Shown here piece by piece: positions 34,498 to 43,607 of a DNA stretch of 62,267 nt (its first letter is position 1; every line of letters starts with the position of its first letter). Origin of the DNA: Candidatus Methanoperedens nitratireducens (GTDB taxonomy: Archaea; Halobacteriota; Methanosarcinia; Methanosarcinales; Methanoperedenaceae); contig DYGR01000012.1 in the NCBI GenBank assembly GCA_020724545.1, positions 1-62,267 of the forward strand. The letters are read 5' to 3'. Position numbers and translations under genes: made by a program. The notes under the pieces were generated by a model, which saw only the letters and a program-made list of their open reading frames with translations, had not been told where the DNA came from and made no database searches.

Positions 34498-34845
34498 ATG
34501 AAAAATCAAAGTAAGTATTGGAGGAAACGGCAAGGTCATAATATAATTTAAAAAAGAGAGACCCAGAGAGGAGATAAAAAAGGAGTTAGCTGACCTAATC
34601 GGGAATCTTCTCCTTTCATCTTACCTGATTTCACTAACAGAACAAAAGTAGCACAATCCATATTGCGAAGAGACTGAGAGAACTTATTCGATCACAAATG
34701 TAATTTATGCTGTCCATGTTATCAGCAATGAATCACCAAGATCAAGAACCATACCTATGAAAAGAAAATTACAGGCAACAGGGATAAAATGGAGGAAGCA
34801 GCATCATCAGAGCGTATGATGTAGCATTTTTCAATGAGAATCCAG
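34498..34845 (+). pseudogene. Decayed copy of the JAMM-protease gene
   Basis: Three parts match the intact JAMM gene at 35512-36159 in order. The first bases of its frame (AATCAAAGTNNGTATTGNNGGAAA) recur at 34503. A middle block reads YAVHVISNE against VHAVSDE. An end block reads YDVAFFNENP against HEVAFFDENT (34818-34845). Frameshifts and missing sequence, including the metal-binding motif, show it is dead. It lies directly before the winged-helix gene, so the JAMM and winged-helix genes have been duplicated together. Confidence 0.65.
34579..34616. repeat. Inverted repeat inside the JAMM pseudogene
   Basis: AAAGGAG (34579-34585) and CTCCTTT (34610-34616) form a 7-bp stem with a 24-base loop; of uncertain meaning. 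Confidence 0.35.
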
Positions 34846-34863
34846 AACAGTCGAGGTATAGAT

Positions 34864-35367
34864 ATGAGTAGTATTGCGAAACTAACAGCTCTACTTGAAC
34901 TGGACGAACAGGGGGAAGAAATAGCAGAGATTATTGCAGGTATGCTTATAGATGATAGAAAAAGGAATATTTTTGTAGCAAGACTCGCTGAGATAAGGAA
35001 CCAATTGCTTGCGATTGATGCTAAAGTTGAATTGACAGATGCCGAGGATGCTGTCAGGCGATTCGTTGTTGAGATAAAAAGACCAGTTACAACTCAGGAA
35101 GTGGCAGAGAAAATCGGGCGTGGGTTTCCAAGCCTAAAGTACAGGACACATACATCGACAATCCTAAATTCCCTGGTGAGCAAGGGGATTTTAGGAAAAT
35201 TTAAGGATGGCTATAGCTACTACTTCACTACGCCAAGAGAGGCAGTGATGGAGCGGCTTAAAAGAAGAGGAGAGCATCCGGAAAGATGCTCACCAGCTGA
35301 GATATCGAAAGAAACAGGGATGCCATTGAGCACAGTGCTGAATGTGATAGAGGAATTGCTGATATGA
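34864..35367 (+). CDS. Two-domain winged-helix transcription regulator
   Basis: 167 residues from ATG 34864, preceded by GAGGT seven bases upstream. Residues ~1-55 are helical; ~60-125 form a winged helix (VTTQEVAEKIGRGFPSLKYRT), and the C-terminus begins a second helix-turn-helix (SPAEISKETGMPLSTVLNVIEELL). Decayed copies of its 3' half occur at 38070-38290 and 43075-43131. The JAMM protease gene follows 144 bases later. Targets unknown. Confidence 0.75.
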   Translation: MSSIAKLTALLELDEQGEEIAEIIAGMLIDDRKRNIFVARLAEIRNQLLAIDAKVELTDAEDAVRRFVVEIKRPVTTQEVAEKIGRGFPSLKYRTHTSTILNSLVSKGILGKFKDGYSYYFTTPREAVMERLKRRGEHPERCSPAEISKETGMPLSTVLNVIEELLI

Positions 35368-35511
35368 TAGGAATTTGCAACTTAGATAAGATATGTTCTA
35401 AGTAGAAGAGCATGACAAACTTTATTAATAACACATTAATAATCTAAATTAAATATAAATTTTTGAGGCTCTGGCCAAAACTGAAGTAACAATACAGGAG
35501 TAAAGAATTAG

Positions 35512-36159
35512 ATGCGGAAAATCAAAGTTGTTATTGAAGGAAATGGAACTATTAGAATCAAGCTAAAGAAAAAAGAGGAAATAAGCAGTCGGATAATGCC
35601 TGAAACGGAGAGATCAGCAACTTCTACCATAAGAAATGAGAGTATTTCTCTCTCCTCCTCTCTTATAAACCAGATGGAAATAAGGGTGGAATCTGTTTTC
35701 AGGCCAAAAGTGCAGGATGTAGAGGTAGTCTATGCACTATCGGGTCAGAACGGAATAGTTGATCGTCTACATAACTTATCCTCCAATGAGGTAGTGGCAC
35801 ATGCCACACCAGATATGATCACCTATACTGCTGAAAAAATGATGGAATATATCCGCGAGGAACGAACCAAGACTCCAGAACTGATAATTCATGTACATAG
35901 CCATCCATCCGGGTTGCCAGAGCTATCTGATATTGACAGAGATTCTATGAAAAAGGTTGCTAAGCGGGTGAGGGAGATTATTCCAGATGCTACAATTATT
36001 TTTGGTGTGCACGCAGTGAGCGATGAACACAGACAGCGTAGGATACCTCCACAGAAGGTCTCTGAAAACTGGATAAGATGGAGTAGTATAACTAGAATCC
36101 ATGAAGTGGCATTCTTTGATGAGAACACAAGGCCTGTTGTGGTGAGGATAAATGAATAG
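35512..36159 (+). CDS. JAMM/MPN-domain metalloprotease
   Basis: 215 residues. The zinc-binding motif H-x-H-x7-S-x2-D is exact (H129, H131, S139, D142 in HSHPSGLPELSDID), marking a JAB/MPN isopeptidase or peptidase. Such enzymes cleave ubiquitin-like modifiers or trim peptides. The N-terminal ~25 residues (KIKVVIEGNGTIRIKLKKKEE region, 3-23) are separate from the catalytic domain, are Lys-rich, and resemble the N-terminus of the small peptide at 36305-36496. A decayed copy lies upstream. No ubiquitin-like gene is seen nearby, so a role in peptide processing is possible but unproven. Confidence 0.82.
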   Translation: MRKIKVVIEGNGTIRIKLKKKEEISSRIMPETERSATSTIRNESISLSSSLINQMEIRVESVFRPKVQDVEVVYALSGQNGIVDRLHNLSSNEVVAHATPDMITYTAEKMMEYIREERTKTPELIIHVHSHPSGLPELSDIDRDSMKKVAKRVREIIPDATIIFGVHAVSDEHRQRRIPPQKVSENWIRWSSITRIHEVAFFDENTRPVVVRINE

Positions 36160-36210
36160 ATTAAGTAGATCTGAGAGCATTAGCATTAATGGCTTGAGGA
36201 CCTCCTCCCT

Positions 36211-36236
36211 GCAGATAAGTTGGAATATATATCTGC
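36211..36236. terminator. Hairpin between convergent JAMM and peptide genes
   Basis: GCAGATA (36211-36217) and TATCTGC (36230-36236) pair perfectly over a 12-base AT-rich loop. Placed between two convergent genes, it could end both transcripts. A smaller ATTCT/AGAAT repeat follows at 36241-36254. Confidence 0.4.
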
Positions 36237-36304
36237 TGAAATTCTTATTAGAATAACGATTGATATTTGTAGTAACATAGTTGTTAGTTTAATTTTGTTC
36301 TGAA

Positions 36305-36496
36305 TTAGTTTTGACTACCAGGTCTATCGTAACCACATCCACAAAGATGATCAACACAGTACTCAGCCTTATTGATTGTCTCTTTAAGAATTCTCTTGCG
36401 ATCGGTTTTTTTATCCACTGAAGCAAGAACTTCTTTTTCCTCCTTGGGTTTTGTGATTACCTTAATCTTGATATCGCCACCAGCAACTATCTTCAT
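36305..36496 (-). CDS. Candidate RiPP precursor peptide
   Basis: 63 residues with a Lys/Glu-rich leader-like N-terminus (MKIVAGGDIKIKVITKPKEE) and a short C-terminus holding three Cys (C47, C52, C54) in YCVDHLCGCGYDRPGSQN. It lies 56 bases downstream of a radical SAM-SPASM maturase on the same strand and has a near-perfect ribosome-binding site (AGAGGTGAT). Size, leader/core contrast and neighbour are those of a ribosomally made, post-translationally modified peptide; a thioether (sactipeptide-like) bond at Cys is one possibility. It might instead be a small metal-binding protein. No homologue is recognised. Confidence 0.7.
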   Translation of the reverse strand: MKIVAGGDIKIKVITKPKEEKEVLASVDKKTDRKRILKETINKAEYCVDHLCGCGYDRPGSQN

Positions 36497-36552
36497 TTCA
36501 TATCACCTCTTTTCAATAAAGGATTCCATAAATAAATAATTTGTTATCATTA

Positions 36553-37896
36553 TTATTGAACATATACATTATATTGATTTTGTAATATTTCTTCGAACTT
36601 ATCAAAAGCAACCGCCTTTAAGGCAAATGAGGTATTTGTCGGCACAAGACTGCAAAAACTACCCGTATTGGCATTTTCTATTCTCGTTTTTCTACATCCA
36701 CCCATGCAGAGAGGCAGAAACTTACACGAATAGCATTTTTGTTCAAATAAATCCATTCTAAACCATTTATTCCATTGCTTTTCATTTAAAATTACCCTTC
36801 CTTCTGAACTTAAATATCCAAATCTTTCCTCTGGATTAAAACCGACACTACATTTAAAAACATCACCGTTATAATTTATTATAAACTGATTTTCCCTTTC
36901 CGCATAACAATAAACAAGTTTTCCTATTCCTATACTTTCTAAAGTGACATCATAGCCCATCTGTTGGGCCAAATGGTAGTAATCTACAATTTTTGATGAA
37001 ATTTCCTCACTTGAAATGTTTTTTGTCGCACTGAAACACTTCTTGCCAAATATGGGCTCATATACTACGCTTAAACTGGGTCGTATATCCTCTGGAAAAA
37101 GTTTGAGTAACTCAGGAATTGCATAGATATTATTGTGATTGAAATTAACTCGCAAGGAAATACGCACTTTTTTATTTGCCCGAACAAGAAGTAAAATGTT
37201 CTCGAATATCTTCCTGAATGAATCTTTCCCATCTCTTAAAATCCGGGTTTTGTTATGAATTTCTGGAGGACCATCAACAGTAATCTGATAACTGAAAATT
37301 CCTATCGCTATCAGCTCCTTTATTCGCTGTTCATTAAACAAATATCCATTAGTCGTAATATTAGTCATGAAACCAATATCATGGTTGTTGCATATATCTT
37401 TAACAAATTTACCTATTGAGATAATTCTTTCAAAGCTTAAAAGAGGTTCTCCACCAAACCAATTTAATATAAGTACCTTAAATTTAGGAACCTGATCCAC
37501 AAGCCATCGCTTTATAGCTTCATCGGTCTCATCGCTCATAAAAGATGATGGAATATGAGATTCATAGCAATACGGGCATGCAAAATTACAAGTCATATTG
37601 GGCATTATGATGACATCTAGACGATTTTCATCTTTCATGCCAAGAATTTTCCGATTCTCTACCACCTTTATTTCATCGACATCATCGTTAATAATATATT
37701 TCCCATCCACCAAGTGAGACATAATTATTTTAATGACTTTATCGTTAATAATTGTATCAGGTTTATCTAATAGCTGTTTTACCATTCGGAATCCTGATTT
37801 ATCCCATACAGTAATGCTACCATAAAGTGTGTTGAAAAGAATAGTCTCTCCAGTCTTAGGATGCTCTGATACAACATTAAACCGGGATGATTTCAT
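36553..37896 (-). CDS. Radical SAM-SPASM peptide maturase
   Basis: 447 residues. An N-terminal ~90-residue domain typical of peptide maturases (FNTLYGSITVWD...) precedes the radical SAM core with cluster ligands C103, C107 and C110 (CNFACPYC), GGEPLLS and TTNGYLF. The SPASM region carries C388, C391, C397, C401 and C415 for auxiliary [4Fe-4S] clusters. These enzymes install thioether, C-C or epimer changes in a cognate peptide, here most likely the 63-residue product encoded next. No exporter or protease is in the same operon, though a JAMM protease gene converges on it. Confidence 0.85.
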   Translation of the reverse strand: MKSSRFNVVSEHPKTGETILFNTLYGSITVWDKSGFRMVKQLLDKPDTIINDKVIKIIMSHLVDGKYIINDDVDEIKVVENRKILGMKDENRLDVIIMPNMTCNFACPYCYESHIPSSFMSDETDEAIKRWLVDQVPKFKVLILNWFGGEPLLSFERIISIGKFVKDICNNHDIGFMTNITTNGYLFNEQRIKELIAIGIFSYQITVDGPPEIHNKTRILRDGKDSFRKIFENILLLVRANKKVRISLRVNFNHNNIYAIPELLKLFPEDIRPSLSVVYEPIFGKKCFSATKNISSEEISSKIVDYYHLAQQMGYDVTLESIGIGKLVYCYAERENQFIINYNGDVFKCSVGFNPEERFGYLSSEGRVILNEKQWNKWFRMDLFEQKCYSCKFLPLCMGGCRKTRIENANTGSFCSLVPTNTSFALKAVAFDKFEEILQNQYNVYVQ

Positions 37897-38069
37897 TTTT
37901 TTCCTCTTTTGTTTGACTGTGGATACTAAAGATATGCTCTAGATATGATGTTTAATTTTAGATGATGGGTAAATAAATATCTTATCCTCTGAATTGAATA
38001 ATGACAATTGTGCCAATAATTATAGCATTGTGAACCAGCTCTTATCTCGTGTATAGTTTCATAAGCGAA

Positions 38070-38290
38070 CGCACATATCGATAACTTTAAATTCTCTGGT
38101 GAGTAAGGGGTTTCAGAAATATTTAAGGATGGTTACAGCTACTACTTCACTACGCCAAGGGAGGCGGTGATGGAGCGGCTTAAAAGAAGAGAGGAGTAAT
38201 CTGGAAGATGCTCGCCTGTGGAGATTGCAGAAGAAACGGGGATGCCGCTTGGCACGGTGCTGAATGTGATAGAGGAATTATTCGTCTGAT
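38070..38290 (+). pseudogene. Decayed copy of the winged-helix gene, 3' half
   Basis: Clear DNA similarity to 35145-35367 runs to the very end, including GGCGGTGATGGAGCGGCTTA and CACGGTGCTGAATGTGATAG. A frameshift occurs in the stretch that encodes the first winged helix, and a stop in the middle breaks the frame. The 5' half is missing. It abuts the damaged transposase gene. Confidence 0.75.
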
Positions 38291-40926: not shown

Positions 40927-42552
40927 ATGAGTAAAAGTATTAGAGTGTGGAGAATACTGCTACTCGCATCACTAATTGTCATAAGCATGCTCAGTATTCC
41001 TAGCAATGCTTTAGGTGGGAACATCTCAGTATCTTCTACACCGTCAGGTGCAAATATTTACTTAGATGGTTCTTATAAAGGTACAACACCAAAGACATTG
41101 ACAGAAGTTTCAGCAAGTTCTCATACAATAAAATTAACACTAAACGAATACGATGACTGGACTACCAATGTTAATGTTGTTGAAGGAAGTACAGCTACGG
41201 TCTCTGCAACATTGATCAAAACGGCTATTTCTGTCTCTTCTACACCGTCAGGTGCAAAAATTTACTTAGATGGTACTTACAAAGGTGTAACACCATTCAC
41301 CATAACACGAGTTTCAGCAGGTTCTCATACAGTAAAATTAACACTAAATGAATATGATGACTGGACTACAAATGTTAATGTAGTTGAAGGAAACACGGCA
41401 ACAGTCTCTGCAACTCTATTGAAAACCACTATTTCTATCTCGTCAACACCATTTGGTGCAAAAATTTACTTAGATGGCACTTATAAAGGTATAACACCGC
41501 TCAACATAATACAAGTTCCATCTGGCTCCCACACAATAAAATTAACACTTGATCAATATGATGACTGGACTACAACGGTTAATGCAATTGAGGGAACTAC
41601 AACTACGGTCTCTGCGAATCTAACAAAAAAAAGCCCAACTCAAACTCTTACACCTACAGAAACACCAATAATTCCTACTCCTTTCAAAACACCAACAATT
41701 ACTCCTACTTATACAACACCAGTGCCATCAGCTACGCCAACACCAACTTATACCTCACAGCCTCAAAATGTTCCAGATAACACTCCACCATCCATTTCTC
41801 TAACCACGCAAATTGTTGATTTTAACAAAAACGGTCAATTGGAAGAAGGGGAAAAGCTACTTATTACCTACGGAGCAAAAGATGAGAGCGGCGTAAAGTC
41901 TATAAAATTATTGTTGGATGGAGACCTAATAGAATCGCGCAATAACGAAGGTACTTACCAAACCACCACCGATTCCTTATCGATAGGCATTCATACTATT
42001 GTAGTTGAAGCAGTCGATTCAAATGGAAACAAGAATTCCGAGAAAAAGAATATTACTGCGGCGCGGCTGGGACCAAGCGTTTATTTCCCGAAATCGATAT
42101 ATGAGTTGAGGGAGGGAGAAGATTTTAAAGTTGATTTATCTGCTGTTAATCCTACTGGACCTAAAATGGAGGCATTACTGATTATAAAGCCTCCTGGCAA
42201 TGGAGTTTCTATCTATGAAAGCTGGTGCAAAGGTCTTGAGGGTATGTGTACCGGCAAATATGAAATCGAGCCCGGAGACACTATCAGGTCGATTTCGATG
42301 AGAATGCGCGCAGACAAGGCTGGAGAATACCAAATAGATGCTGAGGTATATTATCAGTTCGATGACGGTCAAAGGTCGCCCACACGCTATGAAACGCTTA
42401 CTTTAGTTGTTAAACCTAAATCTCAGCAATCGAACCTGGCCAATACGCAAGCGCAAGCGCCATCAACACCAGGATTTGAGTTCGTGAATGGCATATTTGG
42501 ATTATTGGTCATCGTATTGATGAGAAGTTGTAGGAAAGTTCGAAGGATGTGA
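40927..42552 (+). CDS. Secreted PEGA-repeat protein with PGF-CTERM tail
   Basis: 541 residues. A signal peptide (~1-29) is followed by three 66-residue PEGA domains (SSTPSGAxIYLDGxYKGxTP, residues ~33-230), a Thr/Pro-rich linker (~232-285), an Ig-like domain (~288-375) with DESGVKSIKLLLDG, a domain related to the CARDB-like proteins nearby (EPGDTIRSISMRMR...GEY) and a sorting tail TPGFEFVNGIFGLLVIVLM plus basic residues. The PGF-CTERM signal is cut by archaeosortase A and anchored by lipid. Likely a wall or adhesion protein. Confidence 0.82.
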   Translation: MSKSIRVWRILLLASLIVISMLSIPSNALGGNISVSSTPSGANIYLDGSYKGTTPKTLTEVSASSHTIKLTLNEYDDWTTNVNVVEGSTATVSATLIKTAISVSSTPSGAKIYLDGTYKGVTPFTITRVSAGSHTVKLTLNEYDDWTTNVNVVEGNTATVSATLLKTTISISSTPFGAKIYLDGTYKGITPLNIIQVPSGSHTIKLTLDQYDDWTTTVNAIEGTTTTVSANLTKKSPTQTLTPTETPIIPTPFKTPTITPTYTTPVPSATPTPTYTSQPQNVPDNTPPSISLTTQIVDFNKNGQLEEGEKLLITYGAKDESGVKSIKLLLDGDLIESRNNEGTYQTTTDSLSIGIHTIVVEAVDSNGNKNSEKKNITAARLGPSVYFPKSIYELREGEDFKVDLSAVNPTGPKMEALLIIKPPGNGVSIYESWCKGLEGMCTGKYEIEPGDTIRSISMRMRADKAGEYQIDAEVYYQFDDGQRSPTRYETLTLVVKPKSQQSNLANTQAQAPSTPGFEFVNGIFGLLVIVLMRSCRKVRRM

Positions 42553-43184: not shown

Positions 43185-43607
43185 ATGAAAAATCTCCAGG
43201 ATATAAGAACCGATCTGTATTTTATTAAGGACTACGAGGTAGTTGTTTTTGGCTCGTATGCAAGCAAGAGAGCAGATAAACGCTCAGATATCGATATTGC
43301 AGTGATAACCAGAGAAAAAGACAGGAACAGATGCATGGAGATCTGGAAGGAAATTTTGGGGAAGGCACCAGCTACCTATGATATAAAAATATTCGAACTT
43401 CTTCCTCTACATATAAAAGCCTCTCTCATTCAGAATTATGAAGTAGTTTTTGGAAACAGGCTCGATATCTCCGAGTATTTTTATAATTTTAGAAAACTCT
43501 GGAACGATATGAAATACAGGTTTAAAGAGAATCAATTTCAGAGCACAAAAGAAAAAATCATGGCACTTGAGAGATACAGACGCTCACCAAGGAGATATCG
43601 GGTTTAA
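43185..43607 (+). CDS. MNT-type nucleotidyltransferase
   Basis: 140 residues. The core motif GSYASKRADKRSDIDIAVI (residues ~24-42) is the G-S-x10-D-x-D signature of minimal nucleotidyltransferases; a third acidic residue lies in YDIKIFEL. These proteins usually form antitoxin pairs with a HEPN RNase and AMPylate it, but no HEPN gene is adjacent. The C-terminal ~45 residues are helical and basic. It may be an orphan left by rearrangement. Confidence 0.78.
   Translation: MKNLQDIRTDLYFIKDYEVVVFGSYASKRADKRSDIDIAVITREKDRNRCMEIWKEILGKAPATYDIKIFELLPLHIKASLIQNYEVVFGNRLDISEYFYNFRKLWNDMKYRFKENQFQSTKEKIMALERYRRSPRRYRV

Follow-up and report, generated by a model that had tools for sequence, protein, structure and literature searches.

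The described system closest to the locus studied here is Clo7bot, whose maturase model (TIGR04334) is the best NCBIfam match, over nearly the full length, of the maturase reported below and of its closest bacterial-bin relative. The maturases of TIGR04463, CefB (NF038107) and geopeptide (TIGR04280) belong to the same radical SAM-SPASM class, and a further likeness exists with PapB and SCIFF, the RiPP maturases of ranthipeptides, which form Cys thioethers; PapB is described as linking Cys-Xn-Asp/Glu (PMC9413430). A model for how such a product might work is offered by anti-phage lanthipeptides, which are described as intracellular, as protecting the producing cell and as linked to defence islands (PMC12360287), although their chemistry is one of dehydration and cyclisation, not of radical SAM enzymes. 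Small variable loci between two conserved phage genes have also been described as holding antiviral systems (PMC9122126). Among the matches listed by literature searches on radical SAM/SPASM RiPPs, archaea, ranthipeptides and phage-borne clusters, no titles or abstract openings mentioned a pair like the present one, and no paper was retrieved on Clo7bot, on geopeptide with radical SAM, or on Cys-every-fifth.

Here we analyse a stretch of 62,267 nucleotides from Candidatus Methanoperedens nitratireducens (contig DYGR01000012.1; hereafter the window), in which an earlier note had proposed an undescribed radical SAM-SPASM peptide locus.

The maturase and its peptide

The features of the locus are listed in Table 1. 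As the earlier note had stated, the maturase carries three radical SAM Cys, in a CX3CX2C motif (C103, C107 and C110), and its match to PF04055 (62.8 bits) lies above the cut-off. Its SPASM region had been described as holding five Cys, but seven are found (C330, C349, C388, C391, C397, C401 and C415), all of them invariant in three close relatives and spaced as C-x13-G-x4-C ... C-x2-C-x5-C-x3-C ... C. This spacing is that of a full SPASM domain, so the five Cys are to be read as seven; we take it to fit the full motif in the form with two auxiliary clusters. The TIGR04085 (SPASM) model scores 54.3 bits against a cut-off of 27, whereas the Pfam SPASM model falls just below its own (19.6 against 21.5 bits).

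The structure model of the maturase is poor overall (pLDDT 48). Residues 7-87, where pLDDT is about 35-54, are modelled as three strands followed by three helices, which is the order described for RREs. In a profile search of the PDB no solved structure matched this N-terminal part: the best matches began at residue 97 or later, and one weaker match at 92. The best solved-structure match is entry 5wgg, which we take to be CteB.

Table 1. Position and basis of the features of the locus, numbered along the window.
Feature	Position	Strand	Basis
Precursor peptide, 63 aa	36305..36496	-	ORF; homologues L045:6437-6577 and L065:5031-5168; pN well below pS
Conserved core C-V-D-H-L-C-G-C, residues 47-54	36335..36358	-	Three-homologue alignment
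Leader motif K-V-I-T-K-P, residues 12-17, likely recognition element	36446..36463	-	Shared pattern; putative function
Ribosome-binding site of the peptide, GAGGTGAT	36502..36509	-	Read from sequence; similar sites in L045 and L065
Radical SAM/SPASM peptide maturase, 447 aa	36553..37896	-	ORF and translation; PF04055, TIGR04085 and Clo7bot model matches
Radical SAM cluster motif C103-x3-C107-x2-C110	37567..37590	-	Translation; invariant in three relatives
SPASM domain, seven conserved Cys (C330-C415)	36652..36909	-	TIGR04085 match; alignment of relatives
Low-GC inserted stretch holding only the pair	36160..38071	.	GC contrast; comparison with congener flanks
Truncated winged-helix gene, last third, far edge of insert	38072..38290	+	DNA identity to intact copy
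JAB-domain gene, near-edge flank, outside the unit	35512..36159	+	Prok-JAB 25.4 against cut-off 25

The peptide ORF starts 56 nt downstream of the maturase, on the minus strand too. ORFs and translations agree with the earlier description of a 63-residue peptide with C47, C52 and C54 on the maturase's strand, and of a ribosome-binding site of its own, which lies 5 nt ahead of the start. No NCBIfam or Pfam family matches the peptide, in keeping with the earlier view that its core is unlike known RiPP types; judged by its sequence, the core is new to the families searched. A promoter scan stayed at chance level. A search of the same genome at E up to 10 found no second such peptide, and five more proteins above the TIGR04085 cut-off are encoded there on contigs C57, C69, C11, C5 and C85.

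Two further pairs

A scan of 84,980 species (one genome each) with exact 8-residue patterns of the window protein, which would miss copies like that of the phage described below, turned up a single close maturase (59% identity over residues 1-440) in a MAG whose contig owes its Bacteroidetes label to its genome-bin assignment. A homologous peptide ORF of 46 aa lies 71 bases downstream of it (L045). From the other side, a DNA-pattern scan of 2.9 million viral contigs for CV[DN]HLCGC, the peptide motif alone, gave two matches. The first, a phage contig (L065), encodes a 45-aa peptide 25 bases after a maturase 54% identical to that of the window, and this peptide resembles the window peptide along the leader as well. 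The second (L066) has the motif in a frame without leader similarity or maturase; it looks like chance and was rejected as a pair member. The peptide search thus led to a maturase and the maturase search to a peptide, which argues that the pair is real.

The gene order, maturase then peptide, is identical in all three pairs, and ribosome-binding sites precede the peptides in each. Over the aligned part, the MAG and phage peptides are 59% and 56% identical, respectively, to that of the window. Seven of the eight core residues are invariant and the remaining one is D or N, so that the three peptides have in common the core C-V-[D/N]-H-L-C-G-C, together with the leader motif [KR]-[VL]-I-x-[KR]-P, S26-V27 and K38-E39. 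The MAG and phage peptides have one extra Cys just ahead of the core, and the window peptide is longer, with a nine-residue extra tail and ten more residues at the start. Between the three, pS is 0.76-0.80 and pN 0.24-0.27 (pN/pS about 0.3); a pS about three times pN is what a translated gene should show, and marks the peptide as being under selection.

Searched by itself, the window peptide has no significant match in 185 genomes of the order (best E 0.04), as would be the case if the short ORF had arisen by chance next to a lone radical SAM enzyme. Against this stand two further contigs in which a homologue of the peptide adjoins a homologue of the maturase, the excess of pS over pN and the ribosome-binding sites in all three; a chance frame is thus barely credible, and is already refuted unless both other pairs are artefacts. 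Peptide and maturase almost certainly form a conserved pair. Each of the two homologues has a maturase immediately upstream, and no homologue without one, which the earlier note had named as counter-evidence, was seen among the three pairs and in searches able to miss diverged copies.

In a tree of 26 maturases, made with annotated starts for the plasmid proteins and with one very long row left out, the three maturases form one clade with support of 100/99; an earlier tree of 27 had given the same clade (100/100). Elsewhere in the tree, several rows sit on long branches and are placed with uncertainty.

Relation to described maturase families

By curated cut-offs, the three maturases lie outside the Clo7bot, TIGR04463, CefB, geopeptide, PapB and SCIFF families. 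The Clo7bot model aligns with residues 2-411 of the window maturase, yet the three proteins score 210, 220 and 183 bits against a cut-off of 600, compared with 731.6 for a control. Full-length matches to the TIGR04463, CefB and geopeptide models reach 167-197 bits, far below the cut-offs of 525, 600 and 400; TIGR04463 is the best match of the phage maturase. Scores are lower still for PapB (NF047865, 99-101 bits against 340) and SCIFF (TIGR03974, 75-85 against 425).

The comparison of the peptides points the same way. Clo7bot precursor starts share the pattern [KR]-[FYLVI]-I-x-[KRQ]-P with the three peptides, but the Clo7bot peptide model (TIGR04333), which matches two control precursors, has no match to any of the three at E up to 10. 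The loci also differ from Clo7bot in a core with 3-4 Cys, in one precursor against eight or so, and in having no ABC transporter. The CefA examined has 679 aa, including a long Cys-every-fifth tail, unlike the peptides here. With the peptide unmatched and the curated maturase families far below their cut-offs, the proposal of an undescribed radical SAM-SPASM RiPP-type locus is supported.

A loosened leader pattern, [KRQ]-[FYLVI]-[IL]-x-[KRQ]-P, fits all six Cys-rich peptides tried at one Clo7bot locus (five annotated as Clo7bot and one hypothetical, among nine small ORFs), and one CefA start. When leaders were shuffled, the share of trials showing the pattern was 0.013% with the MAG and phage peptides; with the window peptide, where the motif position was left free, it was 0.16%. 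The pattern had been chosen after viewing the sequences, so these figures overstate the surprise.

Within the order, the window maturase has only relatives of 25-30% identity in the 185 genomes; they were rejected as orthologues on this identity and on their different precursors where inspected. Five loci of another genus (L033, L035, L036, L038 and L040, in G174, G167, G160, G154 and G153) encode maturases about 28-30% identical, beside peptides of a different precursor family, whose leader is long and whose core is of the type GGCVGCDGVGGCGFCEC. In the congener G042, another radical SAM protein (L032:332-1771, minus strand, 30% identity) has downstream of it, on the same strand, a Cys-containing short ORF (L032:92-268) with the core NNCPINSGTCTVNTVKGCG.

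Distribution

Apart from the two known pairs, no close copy was found in 185 genomes of the order, 392 of the phylum, and 395 and 391 around the MAG; nor does any of 30 congeneric genomes contain the exact core motif. Same-order peptide hits with E between 0.04 and 1 were checked for a maturase at 29 loci outside the own genome and in G080, and were rejected. One of these loci (L020) holds a radical SAM protein; by eye it looks like a sulfatase maturase beside a sulfatase-like gene, and was set aside, and the peptide-like hit there is, also by eye, antisense to a transporter-like frame. Two short hits of high identity, in G020 (13 residues) and G080 (15 residues), have no maturase on the stretch examined.

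A plasmid search with the peptide gave nothing, and the maturase matched 21 plasmid records at 34% identity at most. Phage records with a radical SAM match number 63, all below 60%, and the 20 of these matches that were listed have 22-32%. The viral collection gave no match to the window maturase alone, and one radical SAM protein of 23% to a two-row alignment; as the phage copy is present in this collection, single- and two-row maturase scans miss true copies. A three-row alignment recovered the L065 phage together with 11 distant proteins of 23-31%, and scans with the peptide alignment and with maturase patterns recovered the same phage and nothing further. At least three of the scans used narrow patterns, and the apparent rarity of the pair is bounded by what they could detect.

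Genomic setting of the three pairs

In the window, the pair occupies a 1.9-kb inserted stretch with a GC of 0.333, against 0.429 for the rest of the window and 0.37-0.46 for nearby stretches. The JAB and winged-helix genes that flank it overlap in three congeners (L089-L091), the JAB gene running across the start of the winged-helix gene. The truncated winged-helix gene is 82% identical in DNA to the end of the intact copy at 34834-35367, and the order in the window runs from JAB remnants through the intact winged-helix gene, a second JAB gene and the stretch with the pair to the last third of a second winged-helix gene, with transposase fragments just beyond the insert. This arrangement and the low GC indicate that the pair sits inside a host locus, and the flanks on both sides, common to congeners, argue against contamination.

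The JAB gene that adjoins the pair belongs to a domain class including peptidases. It was considered as a leader peptidase of the system and rejected on two grounds: it is present in 3 of 30 congeners, none with a maturase match (E 1e-15), and it was not seen among the tested neighbours of the other two pairs. Positions 34501-36159 and 38072-38290 together read as two diverged JAB and winged-helix units, one with a decayed JAB gene and the other with a truncated winged-helix gene. In the congener of L089, such a unit is followed by a HEPN-like ORF (by eye) and a nucleotidyltransferase like that at 43185-43607 of the window. Elsewhere in the window, 40927-42552 encodes a protein with three PEGA domains from 204-nt tandem repeats, and by eye further ORFs look like initiation factor 2 gamma and RNA polymerase subunit E' of archaea, which points to an archaeal host.

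Next to the MAG pair is a serine recombinase gene, which overlaps the end of a truncated comM; a motif search did not find the missing part of comM in the 18-kb stretch. Also encoded on this stretch are a PD-(D/E)XK nuclease, a DUF932 protein and an ATPase resembling coupling proteins. The pair has a GC of 0.439, compared with 0.511 for 37 kb of the contig. An exporter or a protease of some unrecognised type could be encoded by two unannotated ORFs beside the pair (L068:6050-6742 and L068:6764-7648). Another radical SAM-like protein, which with 28.4 bits falls just short of the Radical_SAM cut-off, is encoded about 10 kb away at L068:15984-17564.

In the phage, the pair runs antisense, with a 1238-aa gene that weakly matches tail fibre and J proteins on one side and a 1276-aa gene from no recognised family on the other; GC is 0.539 in the pair against 0.631 in the stretch. 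All three pairs look like low-GC cargo relative to their surroundings, and the locus is not an archaeal speciality: it is a horizontally moving cassette, found also in a bacterial bin and in a phage.

Exporters are present at the Clo7bot, Flammeovirga and Rhizosphaericola loci, whereas the surroundings of the three pairs revealed neither an exporter nor an immunity gene, although some of the neighbours are of unknown family and a JAB gene flanks the window pair. This absence points to a product kept in the cell. Alternatively, the product could be a secreted bacteriocin or archaeocin, its core released by host peptidases and exporters, that would inhibit competitors and be carried because the host benefits. 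Many radical-SAM RiPPs are described as antibiotics (PMC8326336, PMC8172795), and related maturase loci have peptidase-containing ABC transporters; set against the same lack of an identified exporter or immunity gene, secretion appears unlikely. An intracellular product is the reading pursued below.

A variable cargo site in the phage

The 1238-aa gene has 118 relatives, of which 80 were analysed (L098-L177, own contig included); both flanking genes lie on one contig in 53. The gap between them measures 16-24 nt in 8 contigs, 178-203 nt in 3 and more than 330 nt in 40, that of the pair included, and a negative gap in the other 2 is an artefact of extrapolated alignment starts. The 40 filled sites hold 26 cargo types, with the longest cargo ORF running against the tail genes in 24 of 38 and along them in 14. 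None of the other 79 phage loci matches the maturase or the peptide.

At least one ORF from 23 of the 25 other cargo types was compared with Pfam (L164 and the L151/L173 type were left out), and PADLOC was run on the ORFs of seven loci; cargo ORFs were chosen by length, so some may be in the wrong frame. Five of the 23 tested types are clearly antiviral or toxin-antitoxin, a figure known for this site alone, and ten match no Pfam family. The five are a CBASS cyclase with Cap15 (L125), GmrSD/HEC-06 (L122), HicAB (L159), Peptidase_U49 (L147), which we take to be the Lit exclusion family, and Schlafen AlbA_2 (L149). HNH_5 (L106) and NYN (L107) are two further types, and PDDEXK_4 (L119) and a CopG antitoxin (L117) gave matches below cut-off. 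The remaining assignments are MerR with thioredoxin (L111), ParA (L121), UPF0489 (L157) and, below cut-off, Rrf2 (L156). At one of the three loci, then, the pair sits in a variable site where some relatives carry known antiviral systems. The pVip models of PADLOC gave weak radical-SAM matches only (43.8 and 29 bits), which were rejected as too weak to be evidence of viperin.

The phage tail protein has no match in 50,697 phage records, and the phage group is seen only in metagenomic contigs. The site differs from the loci described in PMC9122126 in lying between two tail-region genes of a group known from such contigs alone.

A proposed mode of action

The class of the enzyme suggests that the peptide is very probably the substrate of the maturase. 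The N-terminal part of the maturase would bind the leader through the [KR]-[VL]-I-x-[KR]-P motif, and the radical SAM and SPASM clusters would modify the core; a leader-holding RRE and a role of SPASM are described for RiPP maturases (PMC8326336). The modification probably consists of one or more Cys thioether links, each with a loss of 2 Da, for which C47, C52 or C54 are candidates. By analogy with PapB, a Cys-Xn-Asp linkage is possible in the window and phage peptides; the candidate Asp, at position 49, is Asn in the MAG peptide, so an Asp acceptor there cannot be general.

The same residues allow another reading, in which C-x2-H-x-C-x-C binds metal or is turned into a cofactor used by an enzyme of the host or the phage. 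A metal site could be formed by C47, H50, C52 and C54, none of which varies, and PQQ is a described case of radical SAM enzymes converting Cys-poor cores into cofactors (PMC8326336). An intact metal site would, however, need no maturase, and no oxidase or other user gene accompanies the pairs, which makes a metal- or redox-active peptide improbable.

The placement of the three loci shows a pair that moves as cargo between archaea, bacteria and phages. Taken jointly, a conserved pair, a maturase substrate, thioether links and mobility would amount to a compact RiPP family that is new and travels as a mobile cassette of two genes, a combination that we consider reasonably likely.

What the product does is a more tentative matter. 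It may act within the cell that makes it, where a role against phages or in competition between elements would be the most likely; intracellular anti-phage lanthipeptides provide a precedent for this mode of action. A putative defence role is our leading guess, suggested by one of the three loci and held with limited confidence. In its full form, the proposal would be of an intracellular antiviral RiPP, encoded by a minimal cassette across archaea, bacteria and phages, whose cross-linked CV[DN]HLCGC core blocks competing phages and requires neither export nor immunity genes; as a whole this is rather doubtful.

Significance

The larger point of these data is a cross-domain mobile cassette, with an antiviral role that is putative though plausible. 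If true, the pair would represent a RiPP family of very small size, seemingly complete with one precursor and one maturase and spread over two domains of life and a phage, and peptide-based antiviral defence by a radical SAM enzyme would gain a directly testable candidate. The phage site, for its part, provides a list of candidate cargo genes for testing. Even without an antiviral role, a two-gene, export-free RiPP that crosses domains would be unusual, and easy to reconstitute.
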